From NCBI GenBank assembly GCA_029233925.1, contig JARGOX010000020.1, positions 62,001-126,000 on the forward strand: 64,000 bases of DNA. The letters run 5' to 3'. The notes under the pieces were generated by a model. The model did no database searches. It was not told the origin of the DNA and saw nothing but the letters and a program-made list of their open reading frames with translations. Below are positions 22,170 through 33,127 of this stretch, piece by piece; positions within the stretch are counted from its first letter, which is position 1, and each line of letters begins with the position of its first letter. A program made the position numbers and the translations under genes. The DNA is from Rhizobiaceae bacterium. Lineage in GTDB: Bacteria > Pseudomonadota > Alphaproteobacteria > Rhizobiales > Rhizobiaceae.

Positions 22170-23045
22170 CTATTCGCTGACACCCAAGAGACGCATGGCA
22201 TTGTCCTTCAGGATCAATGGCCGCACGGCATCCTTGATGGCGATGGTCTCGAAGTCCGCCAGCCAGCGTTCCGGCGCGATCATCGGCCAGTCGGATCCGA
22301 AGAGCATCTTGTGCTTGAGGATTGAATTGCAGTAGCGCACGAGGATATCGGGGAAGTATTTCGGCGACCATCCGGACAGGTCGATATAGACATTGGGCTT
22401 GTGCTGGGCAACGGCCAGCGCTTCTTCCTGCCAGGGAAAGGAGGGATGTGCCAGAATGATCGGCATATCCGGAAAATCAACGGCGACATCATCCAGATAC
22501 ATCGGATTGGAATATTTCAACCGCATGCCGTTGCCGCCGCGCATGCCGGAACCTACCCCGGTCTGGCCCGTGTGGAAAAGCGCCGGTTTGCCGGTCTCGG
22601 CTATCGCCTCATAGAGGGTATAAGCCATGCGGTCATTGGGATAAAAACCCTGAAAGGTGGGATGCAGCTTGAAGCCCTGCACGCCAAAATCCTCGACCAG
22701 GCGCCGGGCCTCACGAGCCCCCATTTTTCCCTTGTGTGGATCGATCGAAGCAAAGGGTATCAGCACATCGGAATGTTCCGCCGCCAGTTCGGCAACCTCT
22801 TCATTCTTGTAGCGCCGATAGCCGGTTTCGCGTTCGGCATCGACGGGGAAAATCACGCTGGCAATATTTTGCGCGCGGTAATGGGCTGCTGTTTCCGGGA
22901 TGGTCGGCGGATGGGTCCATGGCGCCCGGAAATATTTCGCCATCGTTGATTGCAGATCATCATAACCATCATCCGCGTGGCAGCCACAGGGCTCTTCCGC
23001 ATGGGTGTGAAAATCGATTGCACGCACCTTGGAAAAATCAACCAT
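22170..23045 (-). CDS. Amidohydrolase-superfamily enzyme, likely beta-ketoacyl-CoA hydrolase of hydroxycinnamate catabolism
   Basis: The 291-residue TIM-barrel enzyme has the metal sites of the amidohydrolase_2 (ACMSD-like) group: DFHTHAEEPCGC (His13, His15), GFKLHPTFQ, ALFHTGQTG, ILAHPSFPW and LFGSDWP. Start MVDFSKVRAIDFH follows a GAGAGAG site. Enzymes of this type (for example CouO in Rhodococcus and the counterpart in the Agrobacterium hydroxycinnamate cluster, from memory) split aryl-beta-ketoacyl-CoA into acetyl-CoA and aromatic acid. Divergent pairing with a crotonase and the nearby fcs and SDR genes support that role. A simple decarboxylase or hydratase (LigJ-like) is the main alternative. 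Confidence 0.75.
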   Translation of the reverse strand: MVDFSKVRAIDFHTHAEEPCGCHADDGYDDLQSTMAKYFRAPWTHPPTIPETAAHYRAQNIASVIFPVDAERETGYRRYKNEEVAELAAEHSDVLIPFASIDPHKGKMGAREARRLVEDFGVQGFKLHPTFQGFYPNDRMAYTLYEAIAETGKPALFHTGQTGVGSGMRGGNGMRLKYSNPMYLDDVAVDFPDMPIILAHPSFPWQEEALAVAQHKPNVYIDLSGWSPKYFPDILVRYCNSILKHKMLFGSDWPMIAPERWLADFETIAIKDAVRPLILKDNAMRLLGVSE

Positions 23046-23102
23046 TTGACACTCTCTCTTACCCGAATGGACCTTTGTCACATCAATCCATACCGGAAAA
23101 TT

Positions 23103-23144
23103 ATTGCTATTCAATAGAACAATTTTATTGTAGACCTTTCTACA
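23103..23144. promoter_or_regulatory. Divergent operator region with two palindromes
   Basis: Between the amidohydrolase and crotonase starts lie two candidate sites. Site 1 (23103-23123) is a 21-base imperfect palindrome with outer ATTG...CAAT and right half GAACAAT (23117-23123). Site 2 (23129-23144) is exact: TGTAGA, four bases, TCTACA. The GAACAAT half also occurs in the marR upstream region, so site 1 is a candidate MarR operator. Confidence 0.5.
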
Positions 23145-23171
23145 GTGTATTTCCAGAATGGACCGAACGCA

Positions 23172-23954
23172 ATGAATGATGACTTCACGGTTTCAGAGAT
23201 CTTGAAAATTGCTCTGGATGGCGAGATTGCGGTCCTGACCATGAACCGTCCGAACAAACGCAATGCGATGAATGACACGCTGCTGGACTCCCTTGACCGG
23301 TTTTTCTCCAAACCTCCCAAGGATGTTCGCGTCGTAGTCCTGACTGGCACAGCAGGGCATTTTTGTTCCGGACTGGATCTGAGTGAGCATGTTTCCCGTT
23401 CGACCGAGGAAACCCTGCACCATTCGCGCAACTGGCACCGTGTCATGGATGTCATCCAGTATGGCGGCCTGCCGGTCGTTTCTGCAATATTCGGCGCGGC
23501 AATCGGCGGCGGCCTTGAACTTGCCGCCTCCACCCATGTGCGTATCGCCGAGGCATCGTCTATTTTTCAACTGCCGGAAGGGCGGCGCGGCATATTTGTC
23601 GGCGGCGGCGCAACCGTTCGGGTCGGGCGTATTCTGGGGGCCGATCGCATGACGGAGATGATGCTCACGGGTCGCAAATATAATGCCACAGAAGCGCTCA
23701 ATCTCGGTCTGGCGCATTATTCGGTTGCCGATGGGGAAGCCTTTGCACTGGCGATGCAGCTTGCCGGAAAAATCGCTCGCAATGCGCCTTTGTCGAACTA
23801 CCTGATGGTCAACACCATCAGCCGGGTTGATGACATGAGCCGTTCCGACGGATTGTTCGTCGAGAGCCTCAGTGCGGCGATTTCTCAATCAACGCCGGAT
23901 GCCGAGGAGGGCCTGAAAGCCTTTCTTGAAAAACGCGCACCTGTTTTCAGGTGA
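23172..23954 (+). CDS. Enoyl-CoA hydratase (crotonase), hydroxycinnamoyl-CoA hydratase candidate
   Basis: The 260-residue crotonase-fold enzyme has the oxyanion-hole segments HFCSGLDLSEH and IFGAAIGGGLELAAS. It keeps both hydratase glutamates, Glu116 (GGGLELA) and Glu136 (QLPEGRRG). It should add water to an enoyl-CoA; here probably feruloyl-, coumaroyl- or sinapoyl-CoA made by Fcs. Both glutamates and the neighbouring SDR favour a beta-oxidative hydratase over a hydratase-lyase that would release the aldehyde. ATG 23172 is chosen over an upstream in-frame start because MNDDFTVSEI fits the family. Divergent from the amidohydrolase, with shared operator region. Confidence 0.85.
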   Translation: MNDDFTVSEILKIALDGEIAVLTMNRPNKRNAMNDTLLDSLDRFFSKPPKDVRVVVLTGTAGHFCSGLDLSEHVSRSTEETLHHSRNWHRVMDVIQYGGLPVVSAIFGAAIGGGLELAASTHVRIAEASSIFQLPEGRRGIFVGGGATVRVGRILGADRMTEMMLTGRKYNATEALNLGLAHYSVADGEAFALAMQLAGKIARNAPLSNYLMVNTISRVDDMSRSDGLFVESLSAAISQSTPDAEEGLKAFLEKRAPVFR

Positions 23955-24023: not shown

Positions 24024-25079
24024 ATGAAACGACGCTTAATGATCACGCTTGCCGCTGCCGGAATGGCCGCAGCAAGTACATTCGGACTGCCCACATTGTC
24101 CCATGCGCAGGAGGTGACGCTTCGGCTGCACCAGTTCCTGCCCCCTGTGGCCACAGTTCCCAAACATATTCTCAAACCCTGGGCCGAACGGGTCGAAAAG
24201 GCTTCCGGTGGCAAGGTAAGGATTGAACATTTTGACGGCATGTCGCTGGGTGGACGCCCGCCGGATCTGATGGATCAGGCACGCGACGGTGTGGCCGATA
24301 TGATCATGACCGTTGTCGGTTACACGCCGGGCCGATTCCCGCGCACCGAAGTCTTCGAACTGCCCTTCATGATGACCGATCCGATCGGCACATCGCTGGC
24401 GTTCTGGCAGATGGTCGAGGATGATTTTCAGTCCAATGAATATGCCGACTTCAAGGTGCTCGGCGCCTGGGTGCACGGCCCTGGCGTGGTCCACACCCGA
24501 AATGGTGTGAACAGGCTGGAAGACATGTCGGGCATCAAGGTTCGTGGTCCGACACGGGTTATCAATGATCTGCTCAGTGAACTGGGCGCGACACCCGTCG
24601 GCATGCCGCTTCCGGCGATTCCTGAATCCCTGTCCAAAGGCGTCATCGACGGAACCGTCATTCCCTGGGAAGTGACACCGTCGATCAAATTGACCGAACT
24701 TGTCAACAACCACACCGAATTTTCGGGCGATGAGTCGCTTTATACGGCAACCATCGTGCTGGTCATGAACAAGGCCAGATATGAGGCTCTCCCTGACGAT
24801 ATCAAGACGGCGCTTGACGCGGAATCAGGCGCAAAACTCAGCGGCTTTGCAGCCGAGGTCATGTATGACTATGACAAGCCGGGACGCGACATAGCCGTTG
24901 CCAACGAAAACAATATCGTCACCCTTGACGAGGCTGAAGTGACGCGCTGGAAAGAGGCGTCAGAACCCGTTGTCGGACGATGGATTGCCGACATGGACGG
25001 CCGCGGGATCGATGGTCAGGCGCTGATCGACAAGGCCAAGGCACTGATTGCAGAAAACGCCAAAAACAGAAATCCCTAA
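24024..25079 (+). CDS. TRAP transporter solute-binding protein, DctP family
   Basis: The 351-residue protein starts with a signal peptide (KRRLMITLAAAGMAAASTFGLPTLSHAQ) and continues with the DctP fold: VTLRLHQFLPPVATVPKHILKPWAERVEKASGGKVRIEHF, then ELPFMMTD, and SGIKVRGPTRVINDLLSELGATPVGMPLPAIPESLSKGVIDG. The last segment carries the arginine that usually binds a carboxylate. It is a periplasmic catcher for an organic acid, here plausibly an aromatic acid. GGGAGGT at 24014-24020 is a strong ribosome site. No DctQ or DctM membrane gene is next to it, so it must borrow subunits encoded elsewhere. It is 70 bases after the crotonase gene. Confidence 0.92.
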   Translation: MKRRLMITLAAAGMAAASTFGLPTLSHAQEVTLRLHQFLPPVATVPKHILKPWAERVEKASGGKVRIEHFDGMSLGGRPPDLMDQARDGVADMIMTVVGYTPGRFPRTEVFELPFMMTDPIGTSLAFWQMVEDDFQSNEYADFKVLGAWVHGPGVVHTRNGVNRLEDMSGIKVRGPTRVINDLLSELGATPVGMPLPAIPESLSKGVIDGTVIPWEVTPSIKLTELVNNHTEFSGDESLYTATIVLVMNKARYEALPDDIKTALDAESGAKLSGFAAEVMYDYDKPGRDIAVANENNIVTLDEAEVTRWKEASEPVVGRWIADMDGRGIDGQALIDKAKALIAENAKNRNP

Positions 25080-25132: not shown

Positions 25133-26344
25133 TCAGTTTTCCGGCGGCACAGCGCTGCGCAATATTTCCAGAAACCGCTTTTGCGGCAGACTGGCAACCC
25201 AGCAGGAACGGGTGGTCACGCCGATGGTCCGCTGGCTCGGCTCAAGCGCCACATCAATCGACACCAGCAGACCCAGTTCGATATCCCTTTTCACCTGTTC
25301 GACGGAAACCAGCGTGATCCGCTGCGACGTCCTGAGCAATCCGAGCATGAAACTGTGCGATCCGGTCTCGATCGGCCTGGAGACATGTGCCGGCGGGTGA
25401 AGCCGCGCGTGCAAAGCGTCGAAATAGGCCCTTGCCGGTGCGCCCTCACGCGGCATGATCCACGGATAGGCCGCCAATGCCGCTGGCGTCACAGGCCGCG
25501 CTGCAGCCCTTCCGTTGCCAGCCAGAGGATGGCGCGGGTCAGCAACCACCACCAGCGAGTCTCGAAACAGAGCTTCCTGAGACAGTTCAAAGGCACGCTC
25601 TTCACTGCGAAGCGCACCCAGGATGAGATCGAGATCACCCCGCCGCAATGCCCGGGCGAGACTGGCATAACGCCCATCCAGCACACTGACCAGAACGCGT
25701 GGATATTCTGACGCAAACCGGCTGACCGCTTCAGGCAATATGGATGTCTGCACCAGGGGCAGGCTGCCAATGGCCAGACGACCCTCGAATTCGCCTTGCC
25801 AGCATTTCACATCAAAATGGGCCTGACGAAATTCATTGAGCGCCAGTTTTGCTGCGCGCGACAGCTCTTCAGCCTGTAGGGTGGCCCTGGTGCCGACTGA
25901 TGTCTGCTCGAACAGGGCAATGCCGACAAGCCGTTCCAGATCGCGGCAAGCCCGGTTGACGGTTGAGACCTGCCGTTTCAAAATGGCCGCAGCCGCGCTG
26001 AAACCACCCTGTTCCACGGTGGCGATCAGGGCGCGAAGCTGACCACAGGTTACCAGATGATGCAGATGTCTGTGACCGCCAAACGCGAACCCACCTTTCA
26101 GATAGCCGACGCCCAGCCGGATCCGTTCGGCAAATATCCGGCCCGGTTCGGTCAGCGCCATCCCGCCGCTCCTGCGTGCAAAGAGCGCAACACCCAGAGC
26201 CGTCTCCAGTCCGGCAACGGCCTGCGTCAGCGCCGGTTGCGACAGGCCGATCATCTGCGCAGCCCTCGACAGAACCGCGCAATCGGCAACAGCCAGAAAT
26301 CCGTTCAAATGCTTCAGGTTGGGCAAATCTTCAAGAAATTGCAC
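25133..26344 (-). CDS. LysR-type regulator with two tandem HTH domains
   Basis: The 403-residue protein is about 100 residues longer than a normal LysR regulator. It has two winged-helix domains in a row: residues about 10-70 (FLAVADCAVLSRAAQMIGLSQPALTQAVAGLETALGVALFAR) and about 100-160 (LIATVEQGGFSAAAAILKRQVSTVNRACRDLERLVGIALFEQ). A single LysR effector domain follows (EGRLAIGSLPLVQTSILPEAVSRF onwards). Both halves look intact and in one frame. The start is GTG 26344; no ATG is available in frame nearby. It is divergent from the galB-VOC-galC-galD operon, which it probably controls in response to an aromatic acid or ring-cleavage product. Confidence 0.9.
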   Translation of the reverse strand: MQFLEDLPNLKHLNGFLAVADCAVLSRAAQMIGLSQPALTQAVAGLETALGVALFARRSGGMALTEPGRIFAERIRLGVGYLKGGFAFGGHRHLHHLVTCGQLRALIATVEQGGFSAAAAILKRQVSTVNRACRDLERLVGIALFEQTSVGTRATLQAEELSRAAKLALNEFRQAHFDVKCWQGEFEGRLAIGSLPLVQTSILPEAVSRFASEYPRVLVSVLDGRYASLARALRRGDLDLILGALRSEERAFELSQEALFRDSLVVVADPRHPLAGNGRAAARPVTPAALAAYPWIMPREGAPARAYFDALHARLHPPAHVSRPIETGSHSFMLGLLRTSQRITLVSVEQVKRDIELGLLVSIDVALEPSQRTIGVTTRSCWVASLPQKRFLEILRSAVPPEN

Positions 26345-26437
26345 GGCACTTCATACCCCAAAAACCAATGCAATAAACCAATCATGCTGATCAGGCCATA
26401 AGCCCTGATAAGAAGCCATTGCTTTCATCGGGTTCAC

Positions 26438-26454
26438 ATACCAAAAAGCGGTAT
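26438..26454. promoter_or_regulatory. Palindrome of LysR type between lysR and galB
   Basis: ATACC (26438-26442) and GGTAT (26450-26454) are exact complements around a seven-base spacer, which includes the T-N11-A core of LysR binding sites. It lies in the middle of the divergent region, about 95 bases before the LysR start and 120 before galB. Confidence 0.55.
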
Positions 26455-26572
26455 CATTGCAGATTTTGAATAATGGGACGCATGTATTGCGATATTCAAA
26501 TTTGCCAAACACCTTTGGCCTGTGATCAACTCTGATACGTCCAAAAACAAAGGACCGGGAGCCTTTATTAGC

Positions 26573-27307
26573 ATGTCTAAAAGCAAAACCGCATTGGTTA
26601 TCAGCGCCCATTCAGCCGATTTCGTCTGGCGAGCGGGGGGTGCCATCGCCCTGCATGCAAGCCTTGGATACGAGGTGACGGTGGTTTGCCTCTCCTATGG
26701 CGAACGTGGCGAAAGCGCGAAATTGTGGAAGCAGGAAGGCATGACCCTGGAAAAGGTCAAAGCCGGTCGCCGGGTGGAGGCGGAAAATGCCGCCAAGGCG
26801 CTGGATGTTCATGACATTCAGTTTTTTGACCTTGGCGATTATCCGCTGGAACTGGACCGCGAGGCGAAATACCGTCTGGTCGATGTGATCCGTGCGGTTC
26901 AGCCGCGCTTCATGATGAGTCATTCGCACTACGACCCCTATAATACGGATCACGCCTACGCCACGAATGTCGCCATGGAATGCCGCATGATCGCCCAGGC
27001 CTGGGGGCACAATCCCGGTGAAAAAGTTCTGGGCGCACCACAGCTTTACCTGTTCGAACCACATCAGACGGAGCGGATGGGCTGGGTGCCTGATACCTTC
27101 CTCGACATCAGCGATGTCTGGGACAAGAAACGCGCGGCAATCGAGTGCATGGAGGGACAGGAACATCTTTGGGACTATTACACCAATGTTGCTGAAAATC
27201 GCGGTAACCATTTCAGGCGCAATTCCGGCGGGCAGGCCGGCGGCAGACCGGCGCGCTATGCGGAAGGCTTTCAATCCGTCTATCCACGCACAGTCGATGA
27301 GCTTTAG
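26573..27307 (+). CDS. galB: PIG-L/LmbE-fold enzyme, likely 4-oxalomesaconate hydratase (GalB-like)
   Basis: The 244-residue protein belongs to the PIG-L/LmbE deacetylase fold, but has SAHSADFVWRAGG (His13, Asp16) where deacetylases have AHPDDE, and HYDPYNTDH (Asp126, His127) as second metal segment. This variant is the pattern I associate with GalB of Pseudomonas putida, a zinc-dependent hydratase that turns 4-oxalomesaconate into 4-carboxy-4-hydroxy-2-oxoadipate. Placement with GalC- and GalD-like genes strongly supports this. ATG 26573 is preferred; a longer frame starts at 26522. It leads the operon; the next gene starts directly after its stop. Confidence 0.82.
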   Translation: MSKSKTALVISAHSADFVWRAGGAIALHASLGYEVTVVCLSYGERGESAKLWKQEGMTLEKVKAGRRVEAENAAKALDVHDIQFFDLGDYPLELDREAKYRLVDVIRAVQPRFMMSHSHYDPYNTDHAYATNVAMECRMIAQAWGHNPGEKVLGAPQLYLFEPHQTERMGWVPDTFLDISDVWDKKRAAIECMEGQEHLWDYYTNVAENRGNHFRRNSGGQAGGRPARYAEGFQSVYPRTVDEL

Positions 27308-28264
27308 ATGATGAATGATATTGCACATCTCGGCCACGTGGAAATGCTGACCGACCGGTTTGAAGAGAGCCTGGATTTCTTTATAAACGTCTACGGTCTG
27401 ACCGAAAGCGGGCGCGACGAAAATTCCGCCTATCTCAGAGCCTGGGACGATTACGAGTTCCACACGCTGAAGCTGACCCGCAGCGACAATACCGGCATCG
27501 GCCATGCGGCCTATCGCGCCTCATCGCAAGAAGCACTGCTGCGGCGTGTCGCGGCGATAGAGGCCATGGGCTGTGGCATTGGCTGGACCGATGGGGACAT
27601 GGGCCACGGCCCCGCCTACCAGTTTCATGACCCCGATGGCCATGTTTTCGAGATCTACTGGGAAACCCGCAAATATGTACCGCCGAAGGAAGAGCGCCCT
27701 GCCCTTAAAAACATTGCGCAACGCTATCACGGGCGCGGCGTCGCCCCACGCCGCATTGACCATTTCAACCTTCTGGCAAAGGATGTCAGCGTCATTCGGG
27801 AATTCCTGCCCAAAGCCCTTGGGTCACGGGTAACCGAACAGATTGTGCTTGACGATGGCACGGTTGGCGGGTGCTGGTTCACCGTTAATAACAAGACCTA
27901 TGACCTTGCCTACACGCAGGACCATTCAGGCAGCAGCGGACGCTTCCACCACGTCACCTATGCTGTTGACCAGCGCGAGGATGTCTTGCGCGCCGCCGAC
28001 ATTTTTCTCGAAGCCGGCGTTTATATCGAGACAGGCCCCCACAAACACGCCGTTCAGGGAACCTTTTTCCTCTATGTATGGGAGCCTGCCGGCAATCGTG
28101 TGGAAGTCGCCAACGCCGGTGCGCGCCTTATTCTTGCGCCCGACTGGGAGCCGGTGACCTGGACGCAGTCCGACCGTGCCAAAGGTCAGGCCTGGGGCCT
28201 GAAGACCATCGAAAGTTTCCATACTCACGGAACACCGCCGGTACCAGCCAGGGAGCATGAATGA
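27308..28264 (+). CDS. VOC-fold (type I) extradiol ring-cleavage dioxygenase
   Basis: The 318-residue protein has two VOC domains like catechol 2,3-dioxygenase. The iron triad is complete: His152 (RRIDHFNLL), His215 (RFHHVTYAV) and Glu266 (NRVEVAN). The second-shell residues of the active site also appear: His245/His247 (GPHKHAVQG) and Tyr256 (LYVWEP). It should open a catecholic ring next to the diol with oxygen. The substrate is unknown; the operon mates act after cleavage of gallate, so a gallate-like trihydroxybenzoate is the best guess. Its ATG directly follows the galB stop, and its own stop overlaps the next gene. Confidence 0.88.
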
Positions 28265-28935
28265 TGCCTGTTGTTGTCCAGCAATTTGAGCGTGCCGCTG
28301 CCGATATCATTGCCGGCCTGGCCGAAGCCGGTGTCGCAACAGTGCATGAAGCGCAGCAACGCACCGGTTTGATGGCAAACCATATGCGACCGATTTATAC
28401 AGGCGCGCAGATCGCCGGCTCTGCCATTACCGTTTCCGTGCCTCCCGGTGACAATTGGATGCTGCATGTGGCGATCGAACAGGTCCAGCCCGGGGACATC
28501 ATCGTGGTCGCCCCGACGTCACCCTGTGATGACGGCTATTTTGGTGACCTTCTTGCAACCTCCCTGCGCGCCCGCGGCGGCATCGGCATCATCATAGAGG
28601 CAGGTGTGCGTGATACCCGGGATCTGACCGCCATGGGATTCCCCGCCTGGTCGAAATGCGTCTCGGCCCAGGGCACTGTCAAGGAAACCCTCGGATCGGT
28701 CAATATCCCCATTGCCTGCGCCGGCGCCATCGTCCATCCCGGCGACATCATTGTCGCCGATGATGACGGGGTCTGCGTTGTAAAGCGCCAGGACGCCACC
28801 ACGGTGCTGGCCGCTGCCCGCGCCCGCATCGATGCCGAGGAAGGCAAGCGTCGGCGACTGGAGGCTGGAGAACTGGGCCTTGATCTTTACGACATGCGCC
28901 CCCGTCTGGCGCAAAAGGGCCTCAAATATGTCTGA
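28261..28935 (+). CDS. galC: RraA-like 4-carboxy-4-hydroxy-2-oxoadipate aldolase (GalC/LigK-like)
   Basis: The 224-residue protein is of the RraA fold. The segment [29 protein letters not shown] matches class II aldolases that split 4-carboxy-4-hydroxy-2-oxoadipate into pyruvate and oxaloacetate; Arg and Asp of AGVRDTRD bind substrate and metal. [15 protein letters not shown] near the end is also typical. It lacks the features of the RNase E regulator RraA, and the operon context decides. Two ATG codons in a row (28261, 28264) are possible; the first overlaps the dioxygenase stop by ATGA. Its end overlaps galD by eight bases. Confidence 0.9.
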
Positions 28936-29989
28936 GGGCATACCATGCATGTGGATGCGTGGAGGCACCTCCAAAGGGGCCTATTTTCTCGCCACCGACC
29001 TGCCGTCCGAGCGGCAGGAACGTGATCGCATATTGCTCGAAATCATGGGATCGCCGGATCCGAACCAGATCGATGGCATTGGCGGGGCGGATCCGCTGAC
29101 CTCGAAAGTGGCTGTGATCGGGCCTTCCCGGCGCGAAGGCGTCGACGTGGATTACCTGTTTCTGCAGGTCTTTGTCGATCAGGCCATCGTCACAGACGCG
29201 CAGGGCTGCGGCAATATTCTGGCCGGTGTCGGCCCCTTTGCTGTTGAGCGCGGACTGGTCAAGGCAACGGGCGATCTGAGCGAAGTCGCGATCTTCATGG
29301 AAAACACCGGCAAGGTGGCCATTGCCGAAATCCACACGCCCGGCGGTCGCGTCAGCTATGCGGGCAGCGCCAGCATTGACGGGGTTCCCGGCAGCCATGC
29401 GCCAATTGCCCTTTCTTTCAACGGTATTGAAGGTTCAACCTGCGGAGCGCTGCTTCCCAGCGGCCATGCAGTCGATGTGATCGACGGGGTCGAGGTGACG
29501 CTGATCGACAATGGCATGCCCTGCGTGGTGATGCGGGCAGCGGACATGGGCATTACCGGTTATGAAACGCGCGAAGAGCTTGAAGCCAATGAGGCTTTGC
29601 GCGCCAGACTTGAAGCCATGCGACTACAGGCTGGCCCGATGATGAATCTTGGCGATGTGACAGAAAAATCAGTGCCCAAAATGACCATGGTGGCACCGCC
29701 GCGCCATGGTGGTACCATCTCTACCCGCACGTTCATTCCACACCGCTGCCACGCCTCCATCGGCGTGTTTGGCGCGGTCAGCGTGGCCACTGCCTGCATG
29801 CTGCCCGATACACCGGCGGCTCGCTTGGCCACGGTACCCGATGGTGCCCGCAAGATCTTGCAGATCGAACATCCCATCGGCGCAACCACGGCACTTTTGA
29901 ACCTCGACGAGATGGGTGCGATTGCCGGTGCCGGGATGCTGCGCACCACGCGCAAACTGTTTGACGGGCTGGCCTTTCCACGCGGGTAG
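28928..29989 (+). CDS. galD: PrpF-fold 4-oxalomesaconate tautomerase (GalD-like)
   Basis: The 353-residue protein belongs to the PrpF/diaminopimelate epimerase fold: [20 protein letters not shown] at the start, the [20 protein letters not shown] half-site, and the second half with [34 protein letters not shown]. In the gallate and protocatechuate-4,5 pathways GalD interconverts tautomers of 4-oxalomesaconate before hydration by GalB. PrpF (methylaconitate isomerase) is the alternative, but no 2-methylcitrate genes are nearby. ATG 28928 overlaps the galC stop, showing tight coupling. It ends the operon, 13 bases from the convergent fcs stop. Confidence 0.9.
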
Positions 29990-30002: not shown

Positions 30003-31838
30003 TTACAATTTCCGGGCTTCGATCACCCGTTCGGAGCCTGAATAGATGGCTTCGACCAATTGCGGACGATTGGCAATCACCGCCCTCTGGTTGATCGAAC
30101 CCTTGTCCGTCATTTCACCCTTGTCCAGATCGGGTGGGGTTTCCATCACGACCAGACGACGCACACGCGATGCAGACCCTGTTGCCTCGGCTGCGAAAGA
30201 ACTCAGCCGTTCTTCAAAGACTGCGCGGACTGCGGCTTCCCCCATCAGCGATGGTATGTCATGACCGGTGCCGAGCTTTTGCAGCGCATCGATATTGGGC
30301 AATACAATCGCCCCGAGATAGCTGCGGCTTTCGCCGACGATGACAGCATCGCGAATGAGTCCGCCGAAATGATTGATCAATCTGGCACGCAACGCACCGA
30401 CAGCCACCCAGGTGCCGGTGGAAAGTTTGAAGTTCTCGGCTGTGCGCCCATCGAAAAAAAATCCCCGCGTCAGGTCATCCGGATCGACAGGGCGCAATGC
30501 ATCACCCAGCATATAGTAGCCTTCGTCGTCGATATAGGATTTGGCACCGCCCGCATCGCCATAATATCCCGGTGTGATCGATGGGCTTTTGAGCCTTGCT
30601 TCCAGTTTGCCACCATTGGGAACAAGCTTCAGTGAGACGCCCTTCGCCGGGACCCCGACATTGCCCGAAAAAGCCTGTTGTTGCGTGCACATCAGAGCAA
30701 AAGGTCCGGTTTCCGTTGCGCCAAGTCCGGTGGTCAAAAGGACCTCATGCCCGGCCGTTTCGCGCGACAGGCGCAGAAGATCGTCCCAGGTGTGCTGGGC
30801 CATGCCCGCACCGGCATACATCATCATGTCCAGCCGACTGAAAAAATTCTCTCTGAGAGCATCGTCCTGCTCAAAGGCGCTTACCAGCATTTCATAGCCG
30901 ACAGGCACATTGAAACACCAGGTCGGCGCAATCTCCTTGAGGTTGCGTATTGTCGCTGCAATGCCCTGCGGCGTTGGCTTGCCTTCGTCGATGTAAAAGG
31001 TGCCGCCATTGAACAGCACCATATTGAAAACCTTGTTGCCGCCTGCCGTATGGTTCCAGGGAGCCCATTCCACGACAATCGGAGGGTGGGCCTTGAGGAA
31101 GCGAAAGCAATCGGCAATGATCACCTGATTGGAAGTCATCATGTATTGCGTATTGATCACAGCCTTGGGCGATCCGGTCGAACCCGATGTGAACAGATAT
31201 TTGCCCACTGTTTGCGGCGTCAGCGTCGCAAATGCCGCATCAGCTGCCGTCGTTTCTGCGCGCTGCGTCAGTGTTTCGAAGAGCAGATCTCTATCATCAC
31301 GCGGGTTGCGCGACACAGCCACGTGACAGCCTTCACCGGCAATCGCCGCCAGCGCCGGACCGTAAAGCACTCCGTCAGAGGCAAAGACCAATCCCGGCTT
31401 CAGCAAAGATGTGATATCTTTCAGCTTGCCGTGATCAGACGACATCAGCGAATAGGCTGACGACACGGGTGCATAGGGGATGCCGACGTATTGGGCGGCA
31501 AGCCCCAAAAGGGCATGATCGATACTGTTTTCCGAAAGAATAAGCACCGGCCGCTGCGGGCCGAGCCCCATCTCAAGCAGTGCATAGCCGACAGATCGGA
31601 CAGCTTCAAACACCTGTGCATAGCTCAGGCGGCACCATTCACCCGCATCGTCGCGCTCCGCCAGATAGGTCGTATCCGGCTGGATCCCTGCCCATTGCAC
31701 CAGAAGGTCCGGCATGCTGCGCGGCGGATCCGGCAACAGGCCTTCCTGCGCCATGACAATGCTGCCATCGTCGCGGTGTTCAATATGAAATTTCGGGTCC
31801 CAGAAGGCATCCGAACTCCGCTCAGCAATCGGTGACAT
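30003..31838 (-). CDS. fcs: Feruloyl-CoA synthase
   Basis: The 611-residue acyl-CoA ligase matches feruloyl-CoA synthases in length and features: AMP-binding P-loop LFTSGSTGSPKAVINT, WAPWNHTAGGNKVFN, MMYAGAGMAQHTWDDLLRLSRET, LGATETGPFALMCT, and the C-terminal lid with YMLGDALRPVDPDDLTRGFFFDGRTAENFKLSTGTWV. It activates ferulate or similar hydroxycinnamates with CoA and ATP, the entry step of side-chain degradation. GAGGA six bases upstream chooses ATG 31838; two TTG codons precede it. It is the last gene of a marR-SDR-fcs unit. Confidence 0.92.
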   Translation of the reverse strand: MSPIAERSSDAFWDPKFHIEHRDDGSIVMAQEGLLPDPPRSMPDLLVQWAGIQPDTTYLAERDDAGEWCRLSYAQVFEAVRSVGYALLEMGLGPQRPVLILSENSIDHALLGLAAQYVGIPYAPVSSAYSLMSSDHGKLKDITSLLKPGLVFASDGVLYGPALAAIAGEGCHVAVSRNPRDDRDLLFETLTQRAETTAADAAFATLTPQTVGKYLFTSGSTGSPKAVINTQYMMTSNQVIIADCFRFLKAHPPIVVEWAPWNHTAGGNKVFNMVLFNGGTFYIDEGKPTPQGIAATIRNLKEIAPTWCFNVPVGYEMLVSAFEQDDALRENFFSRLDMMMYAGAGMAQHTWDDLLRLSRETAGHEVLLTTGLGATETGPFALMCTQQQAFSGNVGVPAKGVSLKLVPNGGKLEARLKSPSITPGYYGDAGGAKSYIDDEGYYMLGDALRPVDPDDLTRGFFFDGRTAENFKLSTGTWVAVGALRARLINHFGGLIRDAVIVGESRSYLGAIVLPNIDALQKLGTGHDIPSLMGEAAVRAVFEERLSSFAAEATGSASRVRRLVVMETPPDLDKGEMTDKGSINQRAVIANRPQLVEAIYSGSERVIEARKL

Positions 31839-31880
31839 CAACAATCCTCATCTGTGTCATATCTCGAAATTCGCTTCGCC

Positions 31881-32648
31881 CTATCTGGGTGCCATGCGTA
31901 TTGCGCCATCCAGACGGATGACTTCACCATTCAACATAGTGTTTTCAACAATATGGCGCACCATGGCTGCAAATTCCGCCGGATCGCCAAGCCGCGATGG
32001 AAAGGGGACCTGAAGACCCAATGATTTTTGCACATCGTCGGGCAGCCCAGCCAACAGCGGCGTCAGAAAAATGCCCGGCGCGACGGTGCAGACCCGAATA
32101 CCATGGGAGGCCAGATCCCTTGCCATGGGCAAGGTCATGCCCACGATACCACCCTTTGATGCCGAATAGGCGACCTGACCGATCTGCCCGTCATAGGCGG
32201 CAACGGAGGCCGTATTGACGATGACGCCGCGTTCGCCGTCCGGAGAGGAGGCCTCACCCGAAGCCATCAGGGCAGCAGCCTGTGAGGCGCAGTTGAACGA
32301 GCCCATCAGGTTGACCCTTATCACTTTCTCAAATATTGCCGGATCGTGGGGTTCACCGCGCGAAACAGTTTTGGCCGCCGGTCCAATGCCTGCGCAATTG
32401 ATCAGGATATTCAAACCGCCGTGCTGTGTCTTCACAGCTTCAAGCCCCTTGCCGACGCTGGCCGGATCGCTGACATCAACTGATTGGAAGCCGCCACCGA
32501 TTTGTTCAGCCATTGCCGCTCCGAGATCTGCATTCATGTCAAAGATCGTAACCTTTGCACCCTGAGATGCCAGCTCCTGTGCAACGGCAGCCCCAAGGCC
32601 AGATGCACCGCCGGTGACAATCGCCACCGTTTTATCTGTTATTTTCAA
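31881..32648 (-). CDS. SDR-family 3-hydroxyacyl-CoA dehydrogenase
   Basis: The 255-residue short-chain dehydrogenase resembles 17-beta-HSD10-type 3-hydroxyacyl-CoA dehydrogenases: NAD site [27 protein letters not shown], catalytic Ser/Tyr/Lys in [24 protein letters not shown], and [14 protein letters not shown]. In this unit it would oxidise the 3-hydroxy-3-aryl-propionyl-CoA made by the crotonase to the beta-keto form. The start is decided by the ribosome site: GAGGAGGA lies about seven bases before TTG 32648, but directly against TTG 32654. The start follows the marR stop by two bases. Confidence 0.88.
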
Positions 32649-32650
32649 GA

Positions 32651-33127
32651 TCAATCCTCCTCGTTCTGGACGCGCTGCAACAATGTGATCAACGTCTGGC
32701 GCTCGTCACTGTTCATGTTCCCAAGGATCCGCTCTTCGTGCCTGTGAACAGCAGCCAGGGCCTTGGCATAGAAATCATGTCCCTTGAGGGTCGCCCGCAA
32801 TGCATAGGCGCGCCGGTCCCCCGGCACCTTTTCGCGCAGGATGAGATCACGCCCCTCCAGCTCATCCACGATCACAACGGTACCGGAACGCTCGATCGCA
32901 AGCGCTGCGGTGACGGCGCTCTGGCTGATTTCGGGATTGGCAACCACAATGGAAAGCACGGAAAATGTCCGCTGCGTAAGCTGCAGCTCATCCAGCGTCG
33001 CCCTGAAATCGCGGTGCATATACATGTAGGCGCGCTTGATATTGTAACCGACCAGGCCAAACAGATCCGACTGCGACACGCGGCCAATTTCTTTTTTGGG
33101 TTCTTTAATGCGTGATGGTCCCGGCAT
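32651..33127 (-). CDS. MarR-family regulator of the hydroxycinnamate genes
   Basis: The 158-residue protein has the MarR winged helix: [67 protein letters not shown]. It is followed by a dimerisation helix. Regulators of this type in the same context (HcaR, CouR, FerC) release DNA when a hydroxycinnamoyl-CoA binds. It is the first gene of its unit, with GAGGAAG before ATG 33127 and a candidate operator at 33179-33199 upstream, so it probably represses itself. The stop lies two bases before the SDR start. Confidence 0.9.

Follow-up and report, generated by a model that had tools for sequence, protein, structure and literature searches.

We examined a 64,000-nucleotide stretch of DNA from a Rhizobiaceae bacterium (the window) in which galB, a gene of the VOC superfamily, galC and galD lie in one operon. 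The best-supported reading of our comparisons is that the VOC protein is probably a gallate dioxygenase of the type I extradiol class, non-homologous to the known enzymes of the LigAB fold; 3-O-methylgallate would be its main alternative or additional substrate. We favor gallate or 3-O-methylgallate because relatives of the VOC gene co-occur with the lower gallate pathway, show partial exclusion of LigA and lie near LigM genes and, once, a tannase gene, and because LigC was not found in the host draft genome or near the relatives compared. Gallate is an acid from plant tannins and lignin. As an Fe(II)-type enzyme, the VOC protein would open its ring at the 4,5 bond to give 4-oxalomesaconate (OMA), doing the job of the LigAB-fold GalA or DesB; GalD would tautomerize OMA, GalB would hydrate it, and GalC would split the product, 4-carboxy-4-hydroxy-2-oxoadipate (CHA), into pyruvate and oxaloacetate. 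The operon would thus suffice to carry gallate all the way into central metabolism; a LysR gene lies next to it in divergent orientation. We infer the substrate, regiochemistry, metal and regulation of this operon from sequence comparison. Its genes are as follows.

26573..27307, + strand: galB, PIG-L type 4-oxalomesaconate (KCH) hydratase (PF02585, 80.8 bits; 319 bits against PDB 5cgz)
27308..28264, + strand: type I extradiol dioxygenase of the VOC fold, the proposed gallate dioxygenase (PF00903, two stretches)
28261..28935, + strand: galC, CHA aldolase (TIGR02798, 354.6 bits, cut-off 304.5)
28928..29989, + strand: galD, OMA tautomerase (NF033377, 522.9 bits, cut-off 440)

All four genes start with ATG, are free of internal stops and adjoin or overlap, as the initial annotation had described at the same coordinates. 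That annotation had also placed every step after ring opening in the operon, and this holds: galC and galD exceed their curated cut-offs, and galB matches 5cgz, a solved 4-oxalomesaconate hydratase, so that the set GalB, GalC and GalD is complete. A section of PMC12314914 describes these three enzymes as acting after gallate ring opening. The arrangement is not chance, because in 49 of 80 loci of relatives (see below) galB, galC and galD are all found close to the VOC gene.

GalA and DesB, type II enzymes of the LigAB fold, would share with the VOC operon both the reaction and the partners GalD, GalB and GalC. DesB is described as type II in part of PMC3962378, whereas the VOC protein has an unrelated, two-domain glyoxalase fold (PF00903, two stretches); no LigB or LigA domain of type II gallate dioxygenases was found in it, glyoxalase domains only. 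Gallate dioxygenases are placed in the LigB superfamily in a portion of the AromaDeg paper (PMC4250580). The best Foldseek matches of an AlphaFold (AF2) model of the VOC protein, which has a mean pLDDT of 82.8 and a weak C-terminal end, were 3lm4 and AphC (TM 0.89). Against the profile for type I HpaD (TIGR02295) the protein scored 195.5 bits, below the cut-off of 321.4.

To compare active-site residues with those of homoprotocatechuate 2,3-dioxygenase (HPCD) and other enzymes, we aligned 99 orthologs (the window protein, 80 loci from a genome scan and 18 further loci) with 17 rows from outside the group. The codons concerned are listed here.

27761..27763, + strand: His152, predicted iron ligand, invariant in 99/99 and aligned with the HPCD and XylE ligands
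27899..27901, + strand: Tyr198, at the position of HPCD His200, Tyr in 99/99 orthologs and in 9wgj
27950..27952, + strand: His215, predicted iron ligand, invariant in 99/99
28103..28105, + strand: Glu266, predicted iron ligand, invariant in 99/99

The iron triad His152/His215/Glu266 proposed from the window is therefore in place throughout the group, and Asn154, Trp190, His247 and Tyr256 are equally invariant (99/99). The accompanying claim of a conserved second shell stands only in part: His247 and Tyr256 are conserved, but every ortholog has Tyr198 where HPCD has His200 and XylE has His199. Of the 17 outside rows, 16 have His there and 9wgj alone has Tyr. His200 of HPCD is the acid-base residue, and the PDB titles of its variants show how much it has been studied. 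The VOC protein thus lacks the second-shell acid-base His typical of type I extradiol enzymes. We treat it as a variant within the type I superfamily, since it retains the fold and iron site.

HPCD of Brevibacterium (1f1x), a type I enzyme, shares with the VOC protein the fold, the iron ligands and the Asn154, Trp190, His247 and Tyr256 positions, but is only 28-29% identical and differs at His200 (Tyr198) and Arg243 (Thr242). The catechol 2,3-dioxygenases 3lm4 (RHA1), LapB and XylE belong to the same superfamily, at 28-36% identity, and all three keep the acid-base His. The closest solved sequence, PDB 9wgj (53% identity), has Tyr at the His200 position as well, but lacks His245, Gln250 and Arg273. 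The entry is labeled catechol 1,2-dioxygenase, an intradiol name, yet its sequence is that of a type I extradiol enzyme; it was not among the best 50 Foldseek matches listed for the VOC model.

His245, Gln250 and Arg273 occur in no alignment row outside the VOC group; Arg290 is invariant within the group but is common to 9wgj and one distant row. Tyr198, His245, Gln250 and Arg273 are kept in all seven further plasmid members aligned (61-73% identity), among them those of Thermus oshimai and Roseomonas. By contrast, a Thermus thermophilus homologue (42%) beside a 4-hydroxyphenylacetate hydroxylase-type gene has His where the group has Tyr. In a tree of 46 rows, a branch (96/88) set the 29 VOC-group rows, some of them without gal genes in the stretch available, apart from all others; 9wgj came next (93/94). 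Deeper joins in this tree are unsure, because 3lm4, HPCD, 9wgj and the outgroup sit on long branches.

At least 595 relatives of the VOC protein were matched in the genome scan; we took the best 80 loci, a sample biased toward close relatives. By tblastn, galB was found in 55 of these loci, galC in 51, galD in 53 and any gal gene in 55; gene sets resembling the VOC operon recur in many other bacteria. A LigM-type demethylase gene was present in 30 loci, MetF-like genes in 18, MetE-like genes in 13, DUF1932 genes in 30 and LigI in seven; LigC was found in none of the 80, and LigA and LigB together in one (L084). The one representative tested of the 30 LigM-type proteins scored 743.9 bits against NF047885 (vanillate/3-O-methylgallate demethylase; cut-off 580). 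The DUF1932 dehydrogenase recurs both in VOC gal clusters (for example L051:6973-7779) and in LigAB clusters (L147, L152 and L153).

At the level of whole genomes, we scored a single draw of 199 genomes from the order. The thresholds were E 1e-60 for the VOC protein, the curated cut-off for CHA aldolase and more than 80 bits for a strong LigA (PF07746). CHA aldolase was chosen as the pathway marker because most tautomerase stretches without VOC or LigA had no galB and galC: OMA tautomerase exceeded its cut-off in 54 of the 199 genomes, but 16 of 20 such stretches lacked both genes, and it was set aside as a sole marker. Aldolase was found in 45 genomes, VOC in 27 and strong LigA in 18. Of the 27 VOC genomes, 26 carried the aldolase, compared with 45 of 199 overall (Fisher p 2e-19, uncorrected for relatedness); in the remaining one, G159, galD adjoins the VOC gene. 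Among the 45 aldolase genomes, 20 had VOC without strong LigA, six both, 11 LigA only and eight neither, a weak mutual avoidance (p 0.019, uncorrected).

PF07746 finds LigA in 22 of the 199 genomes, of which we dropped four with 24-28 bits: G017, G064 and G174, over the cut-off of 25.3, and G131, under it. Counting G017 as LigA changes the split to 20, 6, 12 and 7. There was no PF07746 match in any of 14 control genomes. One of the 27 VOC genomes, G188, has a match that spans half of the protein. Seven VOC matches contain one stop codon; in the five that could be checked, none lies inside the protein proper and one lies at the C-terminal end.

The gene order of the window recurs in nine of 15 plasmid loci (L189, L190, L194 and L197-L202; the galC match in L197 is partial). 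On the walnut plasmid pAt of Agrobacterium tumefaciens, galB-VOC-galC-galD is followed by a tannase gene (PF07519, 437.9 bits), and many further walnut plasmid matches look like near copies. In Rhizobium sp. Q54 an annotated feruloyl-CoA synthase gene lies ~9 kb from the operon. Gallate could be supplied in several ways: LigM-type demethylation of syringate or 3-O-methylgallate, the action of tannase on galloyl esters in one relative, or conversion of hydroxycinnamates by products of the coenzyme A (CoA) genes that flank the operon in the window. The plasmid records listed label the VOC genes 'VOC family protein' or 'catechol 2,3-dioxygenase' and, in one case, BphC.

The Thermus oshimai plasmid cluster holds the VOC gene, galB and galC homologues, a DUF1932 protein and an aldehyde dehydrogenase; no galD homologue was found in that stretch. 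Between VOC and the galB homologue lies a DUF6282 protein (L192:13588-14508), which may be an unrecognized 2-pyrone-4,6-dicarboxylate (PDC) hydrolase or OMA tautomerase.

The host genome is a draft of 43 contigs, 99.4% complete. The initial annotation had stated that LigC and LigI are absent. Neither lies in the window, where tblastn also found no homologue of LigA, LigB, LigM, DUF1932 or tannase. LigC was not found elsewhere in the draft either: with a query that we take to be LigC (domains PF19858/PF01408), the best hit had 68 bits and 32% identity over part of the query, and only partial oxidoreductase matches were returned. For LigI the statement holds in the window only: a homologue is encoded on contig C17 with 56% identity to a LigI-like query that itself scores 272 bits against the solved PDC hydrolase 4d8l. 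The genome also encodes a LigM (652.9 bits, over the cut-off of 580) and a second LigM/DesA-like protein under that cut-off. Its other ring-cleavage genes are a type II HpaD on C23, a DODA-like gene on C8 and a type I HpaD on C3 (415.7 bits). The C23 HpaD has a partial second copy ~5 kb away (L001, L004; G000:C23:42218 and 37351), whose 143 residues look by eye the same as the C-terminal half; it is a partial duplication or an assembly artefact.

LigA (PF07746) had no match in the host genome at E 0.001. Contig C18 nevertheless carries a remote LigB/LigA-like pair (G000:C18:86400-90450; L101:6400-10447), in which the 121-residue LigA-like protein scored 21.1 bits against PF07746, below the cut-off of 25.3, and the LigB-like protein scored 103 bits against a gallate dioxygenase cut-off of 412 and 79 bits to a solved gallate dioxygenase. 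The pair could conceivably be a gallate or methylgallate enzyme. Its neighbors are an amidohydrolase gene on one side and a MetE-like gene on the other, and genes resembling those for transporters lie upstream. The initial annotation had named an induced LigAB-type gene elsewhere in the genome as a finding that would speak against it; the C18 pair is remote, and six of the 45 aldolase genomes carry both types, so that this point is not cleanly cleared.

Both the C18 pair and the C17 LigI homologue weigh against gallate cleavage by the VOC protein, and so do several results from its relatives. Nineteen of the 80 VOC loci have no gal, LigM or LigI gene in the stretch available, some of them ending at contig ends, and a Pantoea plasmid stretch likewise has VOC without any of these genes. 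LigM exceeded its cut-off in just four of the 27 VOC genomes, and a tannase gene was found in a single plasmid locus out of 15 and nowhere else among the loci compared. The VOC gene of Thermus oshimai lies near a 4-hydroxybenzoate hydroxylase (4-hydroxybenzoate 3-monooxygenase) gene. The curated catechol 2,3-dioxygenase cut-off (TIGR03211, 320.2 bits) is exceeded by six of ten VOC relatives tested, up to 354.9 bits in Roseomonas. Protocatechuate 3,4-dioxygenase may act weakly on gallate, according to a section of PMC12481942. Finally, VOC and LigAB share a cluster in L141, L142, L143, L084 and the Roseomonas locus L193; in these, the two enzymes more likely divide the substrates between them than simply stand in for one another. 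In L141, L142 and L143, LigA is 35-38% and LigB 49-51% identical to its canonical counterpart, and LigC was not found (best 60 bits); these LigA/LigB proteins may be 3-O-methylgallate dioxygenases alongside VOC.

In a first alternative, the VOC protein would mainly cleave 3-O-methylgallate to 4-carboxy-2-hydroxy-6-methoxy-6-oxohexa-2,4-dienoate (CHMOD), which would cyclize to PDC; LigI would then make OMA, and GalB, GalC and GalD would finish the pathway. We consider this rather unlikely. LigI in the host genome and near VOC in seven of 80 loci fits it, the neighboring LigM-type genes point to methoxylated substrates, and passages of PMC8091115 and PMC12481942 report that LigAB-type enzymes use both gallate and 3-O-methylgallate, so the VOC protein may do so too. 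However, LigI is missing from the window and from 73 of the 80 VOC loci, and the tannase-linked operon would yield gallate, not its methyl ether. LigI also occurs in gal clusters in which no VOC or LigAB was seen (L122 and L124, each with LigI and gal genes in one cluster), where its role may be in the uptake of PDC. LigI is therefore an ambiguous marker of 3-O-methylgallate cleavage. At L100:5140-8933, LigI lies beside genes judged by eye to encode a large permease and a binding protein of the TAXI type. The LigI layouts suggest that PDC is taken up and used as a nutrient.

That the VOC protein is instead an ordinary catechol-type 2,3-dioxygenase, present in the operon by chance while the C18 pair or PcaGH opens gallate, appears distinctly unlikely. 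At 317.5 bits it falls 2.7 below the TIGR03211 cut-off; the six relatives above the cut-off raise the chances of this explanation slightly, and the C18 pair beside a MetE-like gene also fits it. With the other four of the ten relatives below it, the cut-off cuts through the VOC group, and on these profile scores the curated name leaves function unsettled. A catechol enzyme is disfavored by Tyr198, which occupies the position of the catalytic His in catechol 2,3-dioxygenases, and by how strongly the VOC gene co-occurs with gal genes, a link that extends to plasmids and to a Thermus. A homologue of the C18 LigB is present in only one of the 80 VOC loci (L084), and there the hit falls in the same place as the match to canonical LigB.

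In a further alternative, the VOC protein would be a protocatechuate 4,5-dioxygenase, and a non-LigC enzyme (a DUF1932 dehydrogenase or an aldehyde dehydrogenase) would oxidize the semialdehyde that it forms. This would suit the 30 of 80 loci with DUF1932 and the Thermus oshimai cluster with its 4-hydroxybenzoate 3-monooxygenase, aldehyde dehydrogenase and DUF1932 protein, but is very unlikely: the window has no DUF1932 homologue, DUF1932 also occurs in LigC-bearing LigAB clusters (L147, L152 and L153) and so is not simply a LigC substitute, and a LigC-like oxidoreductase was found in all three of these LigAB-LigI clusters (483-654 bits, one being the query itself) but not in the host draft genome or the 80 VOC loci. 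We rejected the protocatechuate pathway as the principal explanation on this last ground.

The comparative evidence thus supports the initial proposal of a non-homologous gallate or 3-O-methylgallate dioxygenase, as an inference. PraA, the protocatechuate 2,3-dioxygenase of Paenibacillus, would be a type I enzyme with a hydroxybenzoate as its substrate. BLC23O of Bacillus ligniniphilus, a type I alkylcatechol enzyme of 283 amino acids, left protocatechuate and pyrogallol uncleaved in the data given in part of PMC8671467; with gallic acid, the phenol signal fell 14% in 6 h, in a section of PMC9925492 that does not name the product. Among the papers listed from the open-licence literature, as distinct from subscription journals, patents and preprints, none described a gal operon with a type I gallate dioxygenase, and the BLC23O result was the one related hint.

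The remaining features around the operon are as follows.

22170..23114, - strand: amidohydrolase, possible hydroxycinnamate side-chain hydrolase (PF04909, 177.8 bits; homologue near VOC in 4/80 loci)
23145..23954, + strand: enoyl-CoA hydratase family protein, possible upstream hydroxycinnamate step (PF00378, 153 bits; homologue near VOC in 4/80 loci)
24024..25079, + strand: TRAP-type substrate-binding protein DctP (PF03480, NF037995)
25133..26344, - strand: LysR regulator, divergent, two HTH_1 domains (PF00126 in two stretches, PF03466)
26345..26572, no strand: LysR-galB intergenic stretch, likely promoter region, from the layout
30003..31844, - strand: acyl-CoA synthetase, feruloyl-CoA synthase-like, putative role (NF009232, 677 bits, below the cut-off of 777; homologue near VOC in 5/80 loci)
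31881..32654, - strand: short-chain dehydrogenase, possible hydroxyacyl-CoA step (PF00106, 159.8 bits)
32651..33127, - strand: MarR-like regulator, translation judged by eye

The LysR regulator scored 201 bits against PcaQ (TIGR02424), below the cut-off of 303.8, and may have a GalR-like role. Its tandem HTH_1 pair is also present in all four LysR proteins examined from other gal clusters, three of the VOC type and one of the LigAB type. The acyl-CoA synthetase, which has only weak solved relatives, together with the short-chain dehydrogenase, enoyl-CoA hydratase and amidohydrolase, presumably resembles a hydroxycinnamate side-chain pathway.

We propose tentatively, as a real possibility rather than a probability, that a gallate dioxygenase evolved a second time, independently, in the form of the type I subfamily marked by Tyr198, His245, Gln250 and Arg273. 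This subfamily would be the usual one in many rhizobia and agrobacteria, with members also on Pantoea and Thermus plasmids, and in it Tyr198 and the third hydroxyl of gallate would replace the acid-base His in proton transfer; this role of Tyr198 is our hypothesis. The invariant Tyr at the acid-base position offers a direct test of proton handling by type I extradiol enzymes. If the proposed function is right, gallate cleavage evolved twice, on unrelated folds, and the VOC protein would be a single-gene catalyst for OMA or PDC production. Genes now named VOC, catechol 2,3-dioxygenase or BphC would then encode the enzyme that opens the ring when tannins and syringyl lignin are broken down. This role would span many rhizobia, agrobacteria and other alphaproteobacteria, organisms that LigAB-based surveys of gallate degradation would overlook.

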